Shown here in pieces: positions 2,477 to 34,502 of a stretch of DNA of 64,000 nt. Every line of letters starts with the position of its first letter. Positions within the stretch are counted from its first letter, which is position 1. Source of the stretch: Acidimicrobiales bacterium (GTDB lineage: Bacteria; Actinomycetota; Acidimicrobiia; Acidimicrobiales; DATDAH01); assembly GCA_016794585.1 (NCBI GenBank), contig JAEUJM010000017.1:1-64000 (forward strand), written 5' to 3'. The notes below the pieces were generated by a model. It did no database searches. It was not told where the DNA came from and saw only the letters and a list, made by a program, of their open reading frames with translations. The translations under genes were made by a program, and so were the position numbers.

Positions 2477-3795
2477 TCAGGGCGCAGGGAGCCGCCGGGC
2501 GACATAGACCTGCCCCTGCCTGCAGCAGGGATCCGACCAGTGGACGAGCGCCAGTAAGTCGCCGGCTCGGGCGTAGGCGGCGCCGTACCCCGTGTCTGGC
2601 GTGACCCGCGTGATCGATCCCGCGACCAGGTCGCGCTCGAAGAGGTCGAGGCTGTCGGCTTCGTCGCCGGCCACTAGCGGTGCCGTTGACGTGAAGGTGA
2701 GGAACCGTCCGTCGGCGGTGAGGTCCCCCACCTGGCTGCTGCCGAGCGAATCCTGACCGATGGCGTCGACGCTGATCCGCGCCGTGGAGTTGGCCCGAGT
2801 GTCGCGGAGGAAGACATCTCGTCCTGAGTGGTTGGCGTCGGCGTTGTCGTCACCGGCGACGAGATCCGTCGCCTCTGAGTCAAACGCGACCAGACGCCCG
2901 TTCGGTGAAACCGCCAGACGGCCTTCGGGCTTGTTCCGCTGACCCGACGGCGGGCCCGCTTCGGTGCGGCTGATCAGTCGGGTGGTACCGGTGAGGAGAT
3001 CACGAAGAAAGATGTCGGTGGTCCCGTTGTCGTCGTGGCGAACGAGGTTCGACGCGTCGGACGCGAACGCGACGAACCGACCGTTGGCCGAGATCGACGG
3101 CGCGTACGAACGTGCGTTGCCGAGTGCGCCGGCGCTCGAGCGGCTCACTGCGGTGGTGCGGCCGGTGCTCCGGTCGCGGACGAAGATGTCGCTGGCGATG
3201 TTCAGGTCGTCGCTCGCCAGATTCGCCCCAGTTGATGTGAAGGCGACATACCGTCCATCGTCCGAGATGCTTGGGCCAGAGGAGCTTCCGTCCGATTGGG
3301 TGCCGGCTTTGCTCACGCTCACGAGGTGGGTGGTTGCAGTGCGGAGGTCACGGACGAAGACGTCGGAGCCGCGACCGCGGTCGCCGGGAACGAGGTTCGA
3401 GGCCTCGGACGAAAACGCGACGAGACGTCCGTCGGCCGTGATCTGTGGTTCGTACGAGTTCCCGTTCGGGTAGTAACCGTTGCGGAGCGCCCGGCTGACC
3501 AGCCGGGTGACGCCTCGACGACGGTCCCGCACGAACACCTCTGGTCGGTGATCGGGTTGGTGGGCGACGAGGTTTCCCGCCTCCGAGGTGAACACGACGA
3601 ACCGGCCGTCCTCGCTGATGGAAGGCAGCCACGAAGATTCGTCGCCGGACGCCCCGCTGGAGCTGACGCTCTGCTGCTGCCCCAACTGCCAGGTGCCCTG
3701 ATCGTCAGTCAGGATTCGGCCCGCGGAGGCGGGGGGGGGGCCACGCCGGCGGCCACGCCGACCATCAGAAGACCGAGGAGAATCCGGCGCGCCAT
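2477..3795 (-). CDS. secreted TolB/WD40-like beta-propeller protein, frameshifted in the signal-peptide region
   Basis: The body consists of six or more repeats of the type PSISDDGRYVAFTSTGANL ... DIFVRDRSTGRTTAVS, the PD40/TolB-type beta-propeller repeat, with no catalytic domain. The natural start is the ATG at 3793-3795, which begins a signal peptide (MARRILLGLLMVGVAAGVA). That frame is joined to the propeller frame only across a run of ten G (3731-3740) and is one base out of register. One extra base would give a good signal-peptidase site (Ala-Ser-Ala before Gly-Arg-Ile-Leu). It is either a sequencing error, a phase-variable tract or a recent mutation. The exported role is unknown; propellers usually bind protein or glycan. 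Confidence 0.75.
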
Positions 3796-6627: not shown

Positions 6628-6694
6628 GGGGACCCCCCTGTCGATCGTCCGGTCACCCGCAGGCGGCGGGCGATCGGGTGAGTGTAGGAACGTT

Positions 6695-6760
6695 TACGCT
6701 GCGCAGCGGAGCGGAGCTGCCGCAGGGACGAACCGGATCCCGAAGGGGCGCCGACGAAGG
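6695..6760 (+). repeat. dispersed 66-bp element in the 5' leader of the acyl-CoA dehydrogenase gene
   Basis: This copy matches the reverse complement of 34259-34324 without gaps, with 10 mismatches in 66 counted by hand. It starts TACGCTGCGCAGCGGAGCGG and ends CCGACGAAGG, running into AGG to make a GAAGGAGG Shine-Dalgarno 10 nt before the ATG. Inside, CCC-GAA-GGG replaces the GGC-GAA-GCC of the other copy, so the stem is kept by paired changes. It may be a mobile leader or a structured RNA element. The initial TACGCT also resembles a -10 hexamer. Confidence 0.75.
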
Positions 6761-6773
6761 AGGCGCAAGGCAG

Positions 6774-7949
6774 ATGGATTTCGACGTGGCGCCCGACGAC
6801 GACCCTCGGCGGCTCGCGGTGCGGTCCTGGCTGGCCGAGCACCCGGACCCGTCGGGCGCCCAGTTGGCCGAGGCGGGCTACGTGGCCCCCCATTGGCCCG
6901 AGCCCTTTGGCCTCGACGCCGACCCCATCCACCAGCTGATCATCGACGAGGAGCTCCGGGCGGCGAAGGTGCGGCGGCCGGAGAACCCCATCGGCATCGG
7001 CTGGGCCGGTCCGACCATCCTCCACGGCGGCACGGACGAGCAGCAGCGCCGCTACCTCCCCCACCTGCTGTCGGGCGAGGACCTCTGGTGCCAGCTCTTC
7101 AGCGAGCCGGGCGCAGGGTCGGACCTCGCCGGCCTCGGCACCCGGGCGGTCCGTGACGGCGACGAGTACGTGGTCAACGGCCAGAAGATCTGGACGTCGC
7201 TCGGCCACGTGGCCCGGTACGGCATCCTCATCGCCCGCACCAACCCGGACGCCCCGAAGCAGAAGGGCGTGTCCTACCTGATCTGCCCCATGGACACCCC
7301 GGGCATCGAGGTGCGTCCCATCGTCGAGATGACGGGCCTGCACCTGTTCAACGAGGTGTTCTTCACCGACGTGCGCATCCCCGTCGAGAATCTCGTGGGC
7401 GACGAGAACGAGGGCTGGTCCCTGGCGAAGGTCACGCTCGGCAACGAACGCGTGAGTCTCTCGAGCCCGGGTGCGCTGTGGGGCCGCGGTCCGACCGCCG
7501 ACGACCTGCTCGACCTCGTCCGCGATCGCGGCGGCTGCGCCGACCCGATCGTGCGTCAGCGCCTCGCCCGCCTGCACACCGAGTCCGAGCTGCTGCGCCT
7601 CATCCGCCTACGCACGGTCAGCGCCCGCATCAAGGGCGAGCAACCCGGCCCTGAGTCGTCGATCCGAAAGGTGCTCGCCGACGAGCACGGCCAGCACATC
7701 ATGGGCCTGGCCAAGGACCTCGCGGGCACCGCGGGCCTGCTCAGCGACGCCGGGCCCATGGGTGCGCCGGTCGACCTCTGGGAGTACGGATTCTTGTTCG
7801 CTCCGGCGCTGACCGTCGGCGGGGGCACGGGAGAGGTGCAGCGCAACATCCTCGGCGAGCGGGTGCTGGGCCTGCCCCACGACATCGACGTCGAGGCCAA
7901 CCAGACCTGGGCCGAGACGCGCTCCCTCGTCGGCCGCGGCGCCGGCTGA
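6774..7949 (+). CDS. acyl-CoA dehydrogenase
   Basis: 391-residue FAD-dependent acyl-CoA dehydrogenase. Seen: LWCQLFSEPGAGSDLAGL (the FAD/substrate-binding signature), VNGQKIWTSLGHVARYGIL, LFNEVFFTDVRIPVENLVG, and C-terminal VGGGTGEVQRNILGERVLGLP. The family introduces the trans-2,3 double bond into acyl-CoA and passes electrons to ETF. The start is fixed by GAAGGAGG 10 nt upstream, contributed by the dispersed 66-bp element. Seven bases separate its stop from the next gene, so the two are probably cotranscribed. The chain-length class is not determinable. Confidence 0.88.
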   Translation: MDFDVAPDDDPRRLAVRSWLAEHPDPSGAQLAEAGYVAPHWPEPFGLDADPIHQLIIDEELRAAKVRRPENPIGIGWAGPTILHGGTDEQQRRYLPHLLSGEDLWCQLFSEPGAGSDLAGLGTRAVRDGDEYVVNGQKIWTSLGHVARYGILIARTNPDAPKQKGVSYLICPMDTPGIEVRPIVEMTGLHLFNEVFFTDVRIPVENLVGDENEGWSLAKVTLGNERVSLSSPGALWGRGPTADDLLDLVRDRGGCADPIVRQRLARLHTESELLRLIRLRTVSARIKGEQPGPESSIRKVLADEHGQHIMGLAKDLAGTAGLLSDAGPMGAPVDLWEYGFLFAPALTVGGGTGEVQRNILGERVLGLPHDIDVEANQTWAETRSLVGRGAG

Positions 7950-33398: not shown

Positions 33399-33422
33399 CG
33401 CCGGCACCCAGTCCGATCCTCC

Positions 33423-33474
33423 CGTTCTGCCAGCACCAGCCTGTTCTGCAGAACAGGCTGGTGCTGGCAGAACG
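33423..33474. terminator. 52-bp perfect palindrome between convergent genes
   Basis: Two exact 26-nt arms with no spacer; each arm begins CGTTCTGCCAGCACCAGCCT. It fills most of the 92-bp gap between the RNB gene end and the cysQ end. The centre CTGCAG allows cruciform extrusion or a very stable RNA hairpin. Probably a bidirectional terminator. Confidence 0.6.
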
Positions 33475-33490
33475 AGGGAAGGCGCAGCGA

Positions 33491-34243
33491 TCAGGAGTTG
33501 AGGATGGTGAGGGCGCGCTCGGCCAGTTCGGGGCGGCAGATGAGCAGGTCGGGCAGGTACACGTCTTCCTGGTTGTAGAGGAGGGGCGACCCGTCGAGCC
33601 GCGAGGTGTGCAGCCCGGCGGCGGCGGCGACGGCCACCGGGGCGCACGAGTCCCACTCGTACTGGCCGCCCGAGTGGGCGTAGATGTCGACCTCGCCCTG
33701 GACCACGGCCATGGCCTTGGCCCCGGCCGAGCCCATCTCCACGAGCACGCCGTCGAGGGCCTCGGCGAGCTGCTGCGCCGCCGCCGGCGGACGGGTACGG
33801 CTCACCACGAGGCGAGGGGGACCGTCCACGGCAGGGGCGAGCGGGGGCGGCACCTCGGTGCTGAGGGTGACGCCCTGCGCCGGCAGGGCCACGGCCCCGG
33901 CGATGGGGCTGCCGCCTTCGACGAGCGCCACGTGCACGGCCCAGTCGGTCCGGGGCACCTCGCTGAACTCCCGGGTGCCGTCGAGGGGGTCGACGATCCA
34001 GACCCGGGAAGCCGAGAGCCGGGCGTGATCGTCCTTTCCCTCCTCAGAGAGCACGGCATCGGCGGGGGCGGCGTCGGCCAGGCCGGCCATGAGCAGCTCG
34101 TGCGCCTGGCGGTCGCCCTCGGCCTTGAGCGCGGCCGGCGTCTCTCCGGCGGCGGTGAGCCGGTCGCGCAGGGCGACGAGCAGCTCGCCCGCCTCGGTGG
34201 CCAACCGGTGGGCGAGGGCGTGGTCAGCGGCGGTAGCAGGCAT
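33491..34243 (-). CDS. cysQ: 3'(2'),5'-bisphosphate nucleotidase (CysQ-like, IMPase superfamily)
   Basis: 250 residues. Metal-binding signatures of the FIG superfamily: LSEEGKDD, VWIVDPLDGTREFSE, and C-terminal EWDSCAPVAVAAAAGLHTS. The REF after DPLDGT favours CysQ over inositol phosphatases. It removes the 3' phosphate of PAP/PAPS, recycling the product of sulfate activation; adjacency to cysD-cysN-cysC supports this. The start is set by GAAGGAGG 12 nt upstream, which is the end of a tandemly repeated leader element. Confidence 0.86.
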   Translation of the reverse strand: MPATAADHALAHRLATEAGELLVALRDRLTAAGETPAALKAEGDRQAHELLMAGLADAAPADAVLSEEGKDDHARLSASRVWIVDPLDGTREFSEVPRTDWAVHVALVEGGSPIAGAVALPAQGVTLSTEVPPPLAPAVDGPPRLVVSRTRPPAAAQQLAEALDGVLVEMGSAGAKAMAVVQGEVDIYAHSGGQYEWDSCAPVAVAAAAGLHTSRLDGSPLLYNQEDVYLPDLLICRPELAERALTILNS

Positions 34244-34258
34244 GTTGGCTATGTCCCT

Positions 34259-34324
34259 CCTTCGTCGGGACGGCTTCGCCATCCGGTTCATCGGTGCGGC
34301 TGCTCCGCTCCGCTGCGCAGCGTA
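34259..34324 (-). repeat. 66-bp leader element, copy adjacent to cysQ
   Basis: Read on the minus strand it starts TACGCTGCGCAGCGGAGCGG, contains GAACCGGATGGC-GAA-GCC (a 7-bp stem with a GAA loop, counting GGATGGC and GCCGTCC) and ends CCGACGAAGG, passing into the cysQ Shine-Dalgarno. Identical to the next copy and about 85% identical to 6695-6760. Confidence 0.8.
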
Positions 34325-34328
34325 CGGT

Positions 34329-34394
34329 CCTTCGTCGGGACGGCTTCGCCATCCGGTTCATCGGTGCGGCTGCTCCGCTCCGCTGCGCAGCGTA
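34329..34394 (-). repeat. 66-bp leader element, second tandem copy
   Basis: All 66 bases are the same as the copy at 34259, displaced by exactly 70 bp. It is not next to a start codon and lacks the final AGG, so it carries no Shine-Dalgarno. The exact identity implies recent duplication or gene conversion. Confidence 0.8.
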
Positions 34395-34403
34395 GGGATC
34401 CGC

Positions 34404-34444
34404 GGGGCCGTCGTTGCCATCCGGTTCATCAGCCCCTCTGCTCG
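34404..34444 (-). repeat. degenerate third copy of the leader element
   Basis: Retains the central 15-mer GATGAACCGGATGGC on the minus strand and scattered flanking matches; the hairpin loop is changed to AACGACG. It suggests an older array that was partly renewed by the two identical copies. Confidence 0.5.
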
Positions 34445-34502
34445 GCCCGATGGCGCGGTCGTGAATCCCCATCGCGTTGGTCAGGAATTCCGGCCCTCAG
34501 AT

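Follow-up and report, generated by a model that had tools for sequence, protein, structure and literature searches.

Genomic context of the repeated element

The window, a stretch of 64,000 nucleotides from an Acidimicrobiales bacterium, contains an acyl-CoA dehydrogenase-type gene and, on the opposite strand, a cysQ-like gene, both preceded by copies of the same short repeat (Table 1). Direct comparison confirmed the shared 66-nt stretch reported in the first-pass annotation, as 6695-6760 of the forward strand and 34259-34324 of the reverse strand align without gaps over 66 positions with 10 mismatches. Both copies precede a start codon (ATG at 6774 and ATG at 34243), and their AAGGAGG motif ends 10 and 12 nt upstream of it, respectively. 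The 23-nt seed TACGCTGCGCAGCGGAGCGGAGC, with up to 3 mismatches allowed, has 3 matches in the window and 0 in 100 shuffles, which excludes a chance origin. The paired change described for the inner hairpin (hairpin 2) was also found, and hairpin 3 is likewise altered on both sides, its 3' arm containing part of the Shine-Dalgarno sequence. The copy upstream of the dehydrogenase gene has a U-U mismatch at one position of stem 1. A second, tandem copy at cysQ had been missed; it shows 0 mismatches to the proximal copy. According to the coupling script, the cysQ copies carry no mini-ORF coupled to the gene.

Just past the cysQ stop codon (L001:661-747, about 33411-33497 of the window), sub-threshold matches to microRNA models occur on both strands. 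This stretch is probably a strong inverted repeat and perhaps a terminator.

Table 1. Repeat copies, their hairpins and the adjoining genes in the window
Feature	Position	Strand	Remarks
Full repeat copy upstream of acyl-CoA dehydrogenase gene	6692..6777	+	96.1 bits; 3' end overlaps the gene's ATG
Hairpin 1, 6692 copy	6698..6720	+	Outer stem, GGA-type internal loop, inner GC-GGA-GC
Hairpin 2, 6692 copy	6739..6747	+	CCC-GAA-GGG
Hairpin 3, 6692 copy	6748..6766	+	GCGCC-GA-C-GAA-G-GA-GGCGC; includes AAGGAGG 6757-6763
Open frame from GTG 6678 through the repeat to the dehydrogenase gene	6678..6773	+	Possible in-frame N-terminal extension
Acyl-CoA dehydrogenase-type gene	6774..7949	+	NCBIfam, e.g. 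pimC_large 214 bits, below curated cut-off 623.85
cysQ-proximal repeat copy	34242..34327	-	95.2 bits
Hairpin 3, cysQ-proximal copy	34253..34271	-	GTCCC-GA-C-GAA-G-GA-GGGAC
Hairpin 2, cysQ-proximal copy	34272..34280	-	GGC-GAA-GCC
Tandem second copy at cysQ	34328..34394	-	67 nt identical to cysQ-proximal copy
Possible degenerate third-copy fragment at cysQ	34405..34446	-	76% identity, E 0.1 (weak)
cysQ-like gene	33491..34243	-	NCBIfam CysQ 117 bits, below curated cut-off 228.8

Copy number and distribution of the repeat

A covariance model built from 38 copies revealed at least 80 copies at E ≤ 0.01 and at least 85 at E ≤ 1 in the 5.49-Mb genome; since 150 of 12551 candidates were scored, these counts are lower bounds. 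A BLAST search of the same genome with the cysQ copy recovered at least 48 matches at E ≤ 1 (40 of 80 candidates scored). When tandems are collapsed, the family occupies 69 places, 11 of them tandem.

Among 118 genomes of the order, with 38 candidates scored per genome, two match, namely the own genome and one weak hit in G106; among 396 genomes of the phylum, with 11 candidates scored per genome, the own genome is the single match. A strict pattern scan of the contigs of the named genomes and of viral contigs gave 0 matches, and phages and plasmids likewise yielded no BLAST match. A looser scan retrieved seven stretches from several bacterial phyla, with one match each, which we took for chance. 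The repeat family looks lineage-restricted within the limits of these sequence searches, in which the genus and family are represented by the own genome alone, with no pair of strains with and without a given copy. A search of the literature, with subscription journals mostly outside its scope, yielded no described repeat of this kind for this group.

The hit in G106, a member of another family of the order, is a lone element of similar layout between two genes (contig C61, about 3202-3312; L103/L201), with the GNA-type triloops GCGTAGC and GCGAAGC. BLAST of this genome found no further copy.

Conserved fold of the repeat

RNAalifold proposed three hairpins on a sequence-only alignment. In the 38-copy alignment, 96.3% of the cells are paired and changes on both sides of a pair affect 83 cells, compared with a shuffled mean of 24.0. 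Covariation reaches 0.417 versus at most 0.102 with the partners slid, a control in which the structure is favoured, being derived from the same alignment on which it was counted. Tree, loop and pairing counts were obtained from the 66 of 80 copies scoring at least 60 bits. Pair 66/80 is standard in 64 of 66 copies (1 gap, 1 unpaired) with at least 21 changes on the tree, and pair 71/75 is standard in all 66 with at least 11; the tree omits the paired columns and rests on 66 copies aligned anew with few columns, so that these change counts may be inflated. The earlier suggestion that the stems are preserved by compensatory change is supported by both the excess of two-sided changes and the changes at pairs 66/80 and 71/75.

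The loop of hairpin 1 is GGA in 61 of 66 copies (GAA in 3), and that of hairpin 2 is GAA in 59 (GGA in 6). Hairpin 3 has a GNA triloop and, flanking a closing pair, GA facing GA in 62 copies; Watson-Crick partners replace GA/GA in the other four. Both DNA and RNA form stable GNA triloops and tandem GA pairs. Folding energies of single copies are unremarkable, with z from -0.47 to -0.94 for RNA and from -0.31 to -0.93 for DNA.

A conserved coded peptide was considered and rejected: copies differ in the length of the linker that joins hairpins 1 and 2, and 1-nt deletions occur in hairpin 1, so that no single frame is kept through the repeat. Whether a frame is open depends on the site. CsrA-type binding, suggested by the GGA motif, was a further candidate reading.

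Position of the copies relative to genes

The 69 places were classified with our own gene finder, which rewards a Shine-Dalgarno sequence, so that called starts lean to the repeat while stops do not. Twenty-nine places have a sense gene on each side. At 16 others one lies downstream and none is called immediately upstream on that strand, though C15:77490 is probably miscalled among these, and at 24 no sense gene is called downstream. At 21 of these 24, an antisense gene has its called stop codon within -11 to +5 nt of the element edge, at exactly -5 in 12 cases. The other three lack an antisense call: C13:62994 is close to a polA-like gene, C16:84605 falls within a helicase gene, and the third is C26:229123.

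A script classed the 29 operon places by the start codon that comes first once the upstream gene has stopped. In 13, a mini-ORF running through the repeat ends at the start of the downstream gene; one of these (C41:52541) owes its coupling solely to an ORF whose called start is 437 nt upstream. An in-frame N-terminal fusion occurs at 4 of the 29; 11 were scored as other and 1 lacks a start codon.

Neighbouring genes share no common theme, as far as they can be named by NCBIfam and by reading of the proteins listed. Among the 10 proteins tested, PrcA, ArgF, LepA, AroC and ArgG, and FtsY on the antisense side, score above the NCBIfam cut-offs, CysQ, the acyl-CoA dehydrogenase and the Lhr-type helicase score below them, and a small neighbour that is WhiB-like by reading has no match. 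Two further arrangements were noted. Tandem copies at C26:250982 and 258948 precede ImuB-like and DnaE2-like genes about 8 kb apart (names by reading), and at G000:C7:8801-10100 a single 293-aa gene, DivIVA-like by reading, stands between oppositely oriented copies.

The siting bears directly on the function proposed in the first-pass annotation, a portable leader with its own Shine-Dalgarno sequence, either a cis-regulatory RNA family or a mobile leader. Many copies (at least 80), strong covariation and respect for gene edges were indeed found; a constant orientation to genes and a position always before starts were not. The repeat is portable and supplies a usable Shine-Dalgarno sequence where a copy precedes a gene, but at the 21 antisense places it is no leader. 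In a riboswitch-like leader or attenuator, hairpin 3 would hold the Shine-Dalgarno sequence and be opened either by a shared signal or by ribosomes translating the mini-ORF, and the covariation in the stem overlapping AAGGAGG, as well as the mini-ORFs ending at the start codon, would suit such a device. However, antisense copies stand beside stop codons, one copy lies in frame within the helicase gene, and the neighbours include prcA, argF, argG, aroC, lepA and many others by reading. Furthermore, no Rfam family reached its gathering score in the window, and 20 loci gave 15 sub-threshold matches only, one of them over the element (sR49, an archaeal snoRNA model, L028).

The stems themselves provide the clearest distinction. 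Leader function would let those of antisense and intragenic copies decay. Pairing is intact in 636 of 657 cells in 44 sense copies (96.8%), in 290 of 298 cells in 20 antisense copies (97.3%), in 15 of 15 cells in the helicase copy and in 15 of 15 in one unclear copy, with the class of five copies set by hand (C26:250982 and C41:52541 sense, C26:229123 antisense, C16:84605 intragenic, C15:77490 unclear). No decay is seen, indicating that the structure belongs to the element. These intact non-leader copies favour selection on the element itself, though young insertions could look intact too. We therefore consider a cis-regulatory RNA improbable; a mobile leader comes closer, with the reservation made above for the antisense places.

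Since the antisense-class hairpins abut stop codons, the repeat might instead be a 3'-end or RNA-stability element, a terminator or processing hairpin under transcript selection, as has been proposed for REPs and ERICs (PMC3733652, PMC2229807). Yet a sense gene begins downstream at 45 of the 69 places, and the frames that run through the repeat to the gene start in many operon copies would be needless for a terminator, making this explanation very improbable. A site for chromosome organisation or protein binding that owes its spread to selection and not to mobility would agree with the many copies on many contigs; it predicts neither the start/stop siting nor the tandems and open frames, and we give it hardly any credence.

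Candidate insertion junctions

Three sites were compared with relatives. At prcA, 29 of 58 relatives were fetched and four (L117, L119, L123, L138) were unreadable; in 18 of the 25 readable ones the stop of the preceding ORF overlaps the start codon as an uninterrupted RTGA. In the own genome, the repeat is flanked there by two GTGA copies. Similarly, a stop/start overlap at argF was seen by reading in about 20 of 25 readable relatives, L148, L159, L164 and L167 being unreadable.

The third site is the helicase gene, the one case of a full repeat copy within a gene, where it contributes about 28 in-frame residues. Between VNSRR and HHGS the spacing is 71 here, 42 in L181, 41 in L183 and 25 in several others, but 65 in L173 and 97 in L180, and the pattern missed about 13 homologues, including L172, L174 and L175. 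Four homologues aligning end to end (L172-L175) have 213-228 codons versus 233 here. The loop is variable by nature, and the presence of a full in-frame repeat copy in it is certain.

No general target-site duplication was detected among 50 single copies (permutation p 0.053): a duplication score of at least 9 was reached by 2 of 50 own pairs versus 30 of 2450 mismatched pairs. Two candidates, C47:138264 (14 bp, 1 mismatch) and C1:20451 (9 bp), are not claimed as duplications, given that there is no overall excess.

Comparison with known repeats

Mycobacterial interspersed repetitive units (MIRUs) are attributed to Supply et al. (1997). Some MIRU loci are tandem, and DTGA-type junctions serve as their target. 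To our knowledge, the mechanism by which MIRU-like repeats move is not known. As with these tandem loci, the present family has at least 80 copies at 69 places, 11 of them tandem; it also has three covarying GNA-triloop hairpins, a large antisense-stop class and one intragenic copy. One report describes MIRUs as apparently mobile elements that insert at start codons and thereby couple an ORF of their own to the gene at a -4 nt spacing (PMC12548453). The present repeat is likewise short, dispersed and located at starts, with an internal ORF coupled by stop/start overlap as a tendency (13 of 29). It is MIRU-like in anatomy and siting, judged by the published description.

Other families share individual traits. 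Rickettsia palindromic elements (RPEs) have hairpins and readable frames and insert in frame in a protein gene (PMC2229807); the single helicase case and the N-terminal fusions at 4 of 29 operon places resemble this behaviour, with the difference that only one intragenic copy was found here. CGTC-tagged repeats are said to lack a dedicated transposase and to show the tag variants CCTC or TGTC (PMC3733652). The tetranucleotide whose last base opens hairpin 1 is GACG in 23 of 66 copies and GAGG in 20, that is, CGTC and CCTC on the opposite strand. This edge is also compatible with CGTC-tagged repeats, depending on which end and strand are counted. For RPE/CGTC-tagged repeats, these sources give one stem of 8-9 bp, a loop of 4-5 nt and a CCA tail, in contrast to the three short triloop stems here; CCA follows hairpin 3 in 1 of 66 copies, with no consensus.

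REP/RAYT elements are also short hairpin repeats adjoining genes, and GTAG REPs are said to supply stop codons to flanking ORFs by their ends (PMC3733652). Unlike them, the present repeat has three hairpins in about 80 nt and no Y1_Tnp gene in its own genome: Y1 transposase PF01797 has 0 matches there and is positive in 5 of 14 control genomes. Reverse transcriptase PF00078 also has 0 matches in the own genome and is positive in 3 of 14 control genomes. ERIC/RU-1, of 127 bp with TA termini, is intergenic and can carry open frames fused to genes (PMC2229807), a likeness to the present repeat by description.

A probable mobile repeat at translation junctions

Collectively, these data make it highly probable that the element is a mobile repeat, non-autonomous and only about 70-86 bp long, with anatomy and siting like those of mycobacterial MIRUs, a confidence slightly lowered by the variable loops of the helicase homologues and by the edge compatible with CGTC-tagged repeats. 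A single strand or RNA of the repeat would fold into three GNA-triloop hairpins, and the repeat would spread by inserting itself at the edges of genes, with a preference for junctions where stop and start overlap. Such insertions may be tolerated because ribosomes could run through the repeat and open hairpin 3, terminate on reaching the next gene's start codon and begin again there, using the Shine-Dalgarno sequence that the repeat supplies. Recognition of the folded strand by a putative mobilising enzyme is the probable reason why the stems are kept. It is conceivable, though on balance rather unlikely, that the repeat represents a MIRU-like class moved via a folded single strand, whose three GNA-triloop hairpins would form in DNA too, by an enzyme that is neither Y1 nor a reverse transcriptase and prefers translation start/stop junctions.

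Covariation together with a Shine-Dalgarno sequence, as seen here, need not imply a riboswitch. About 80 copies with compensatory change in sense, antisense and intragenic settings point to features of the fold that are kept by the element itself, and the family gives defined junctions at which insertion can be sought. It would also offer a route by which a repeat may enter operons without breaking translational coupling.
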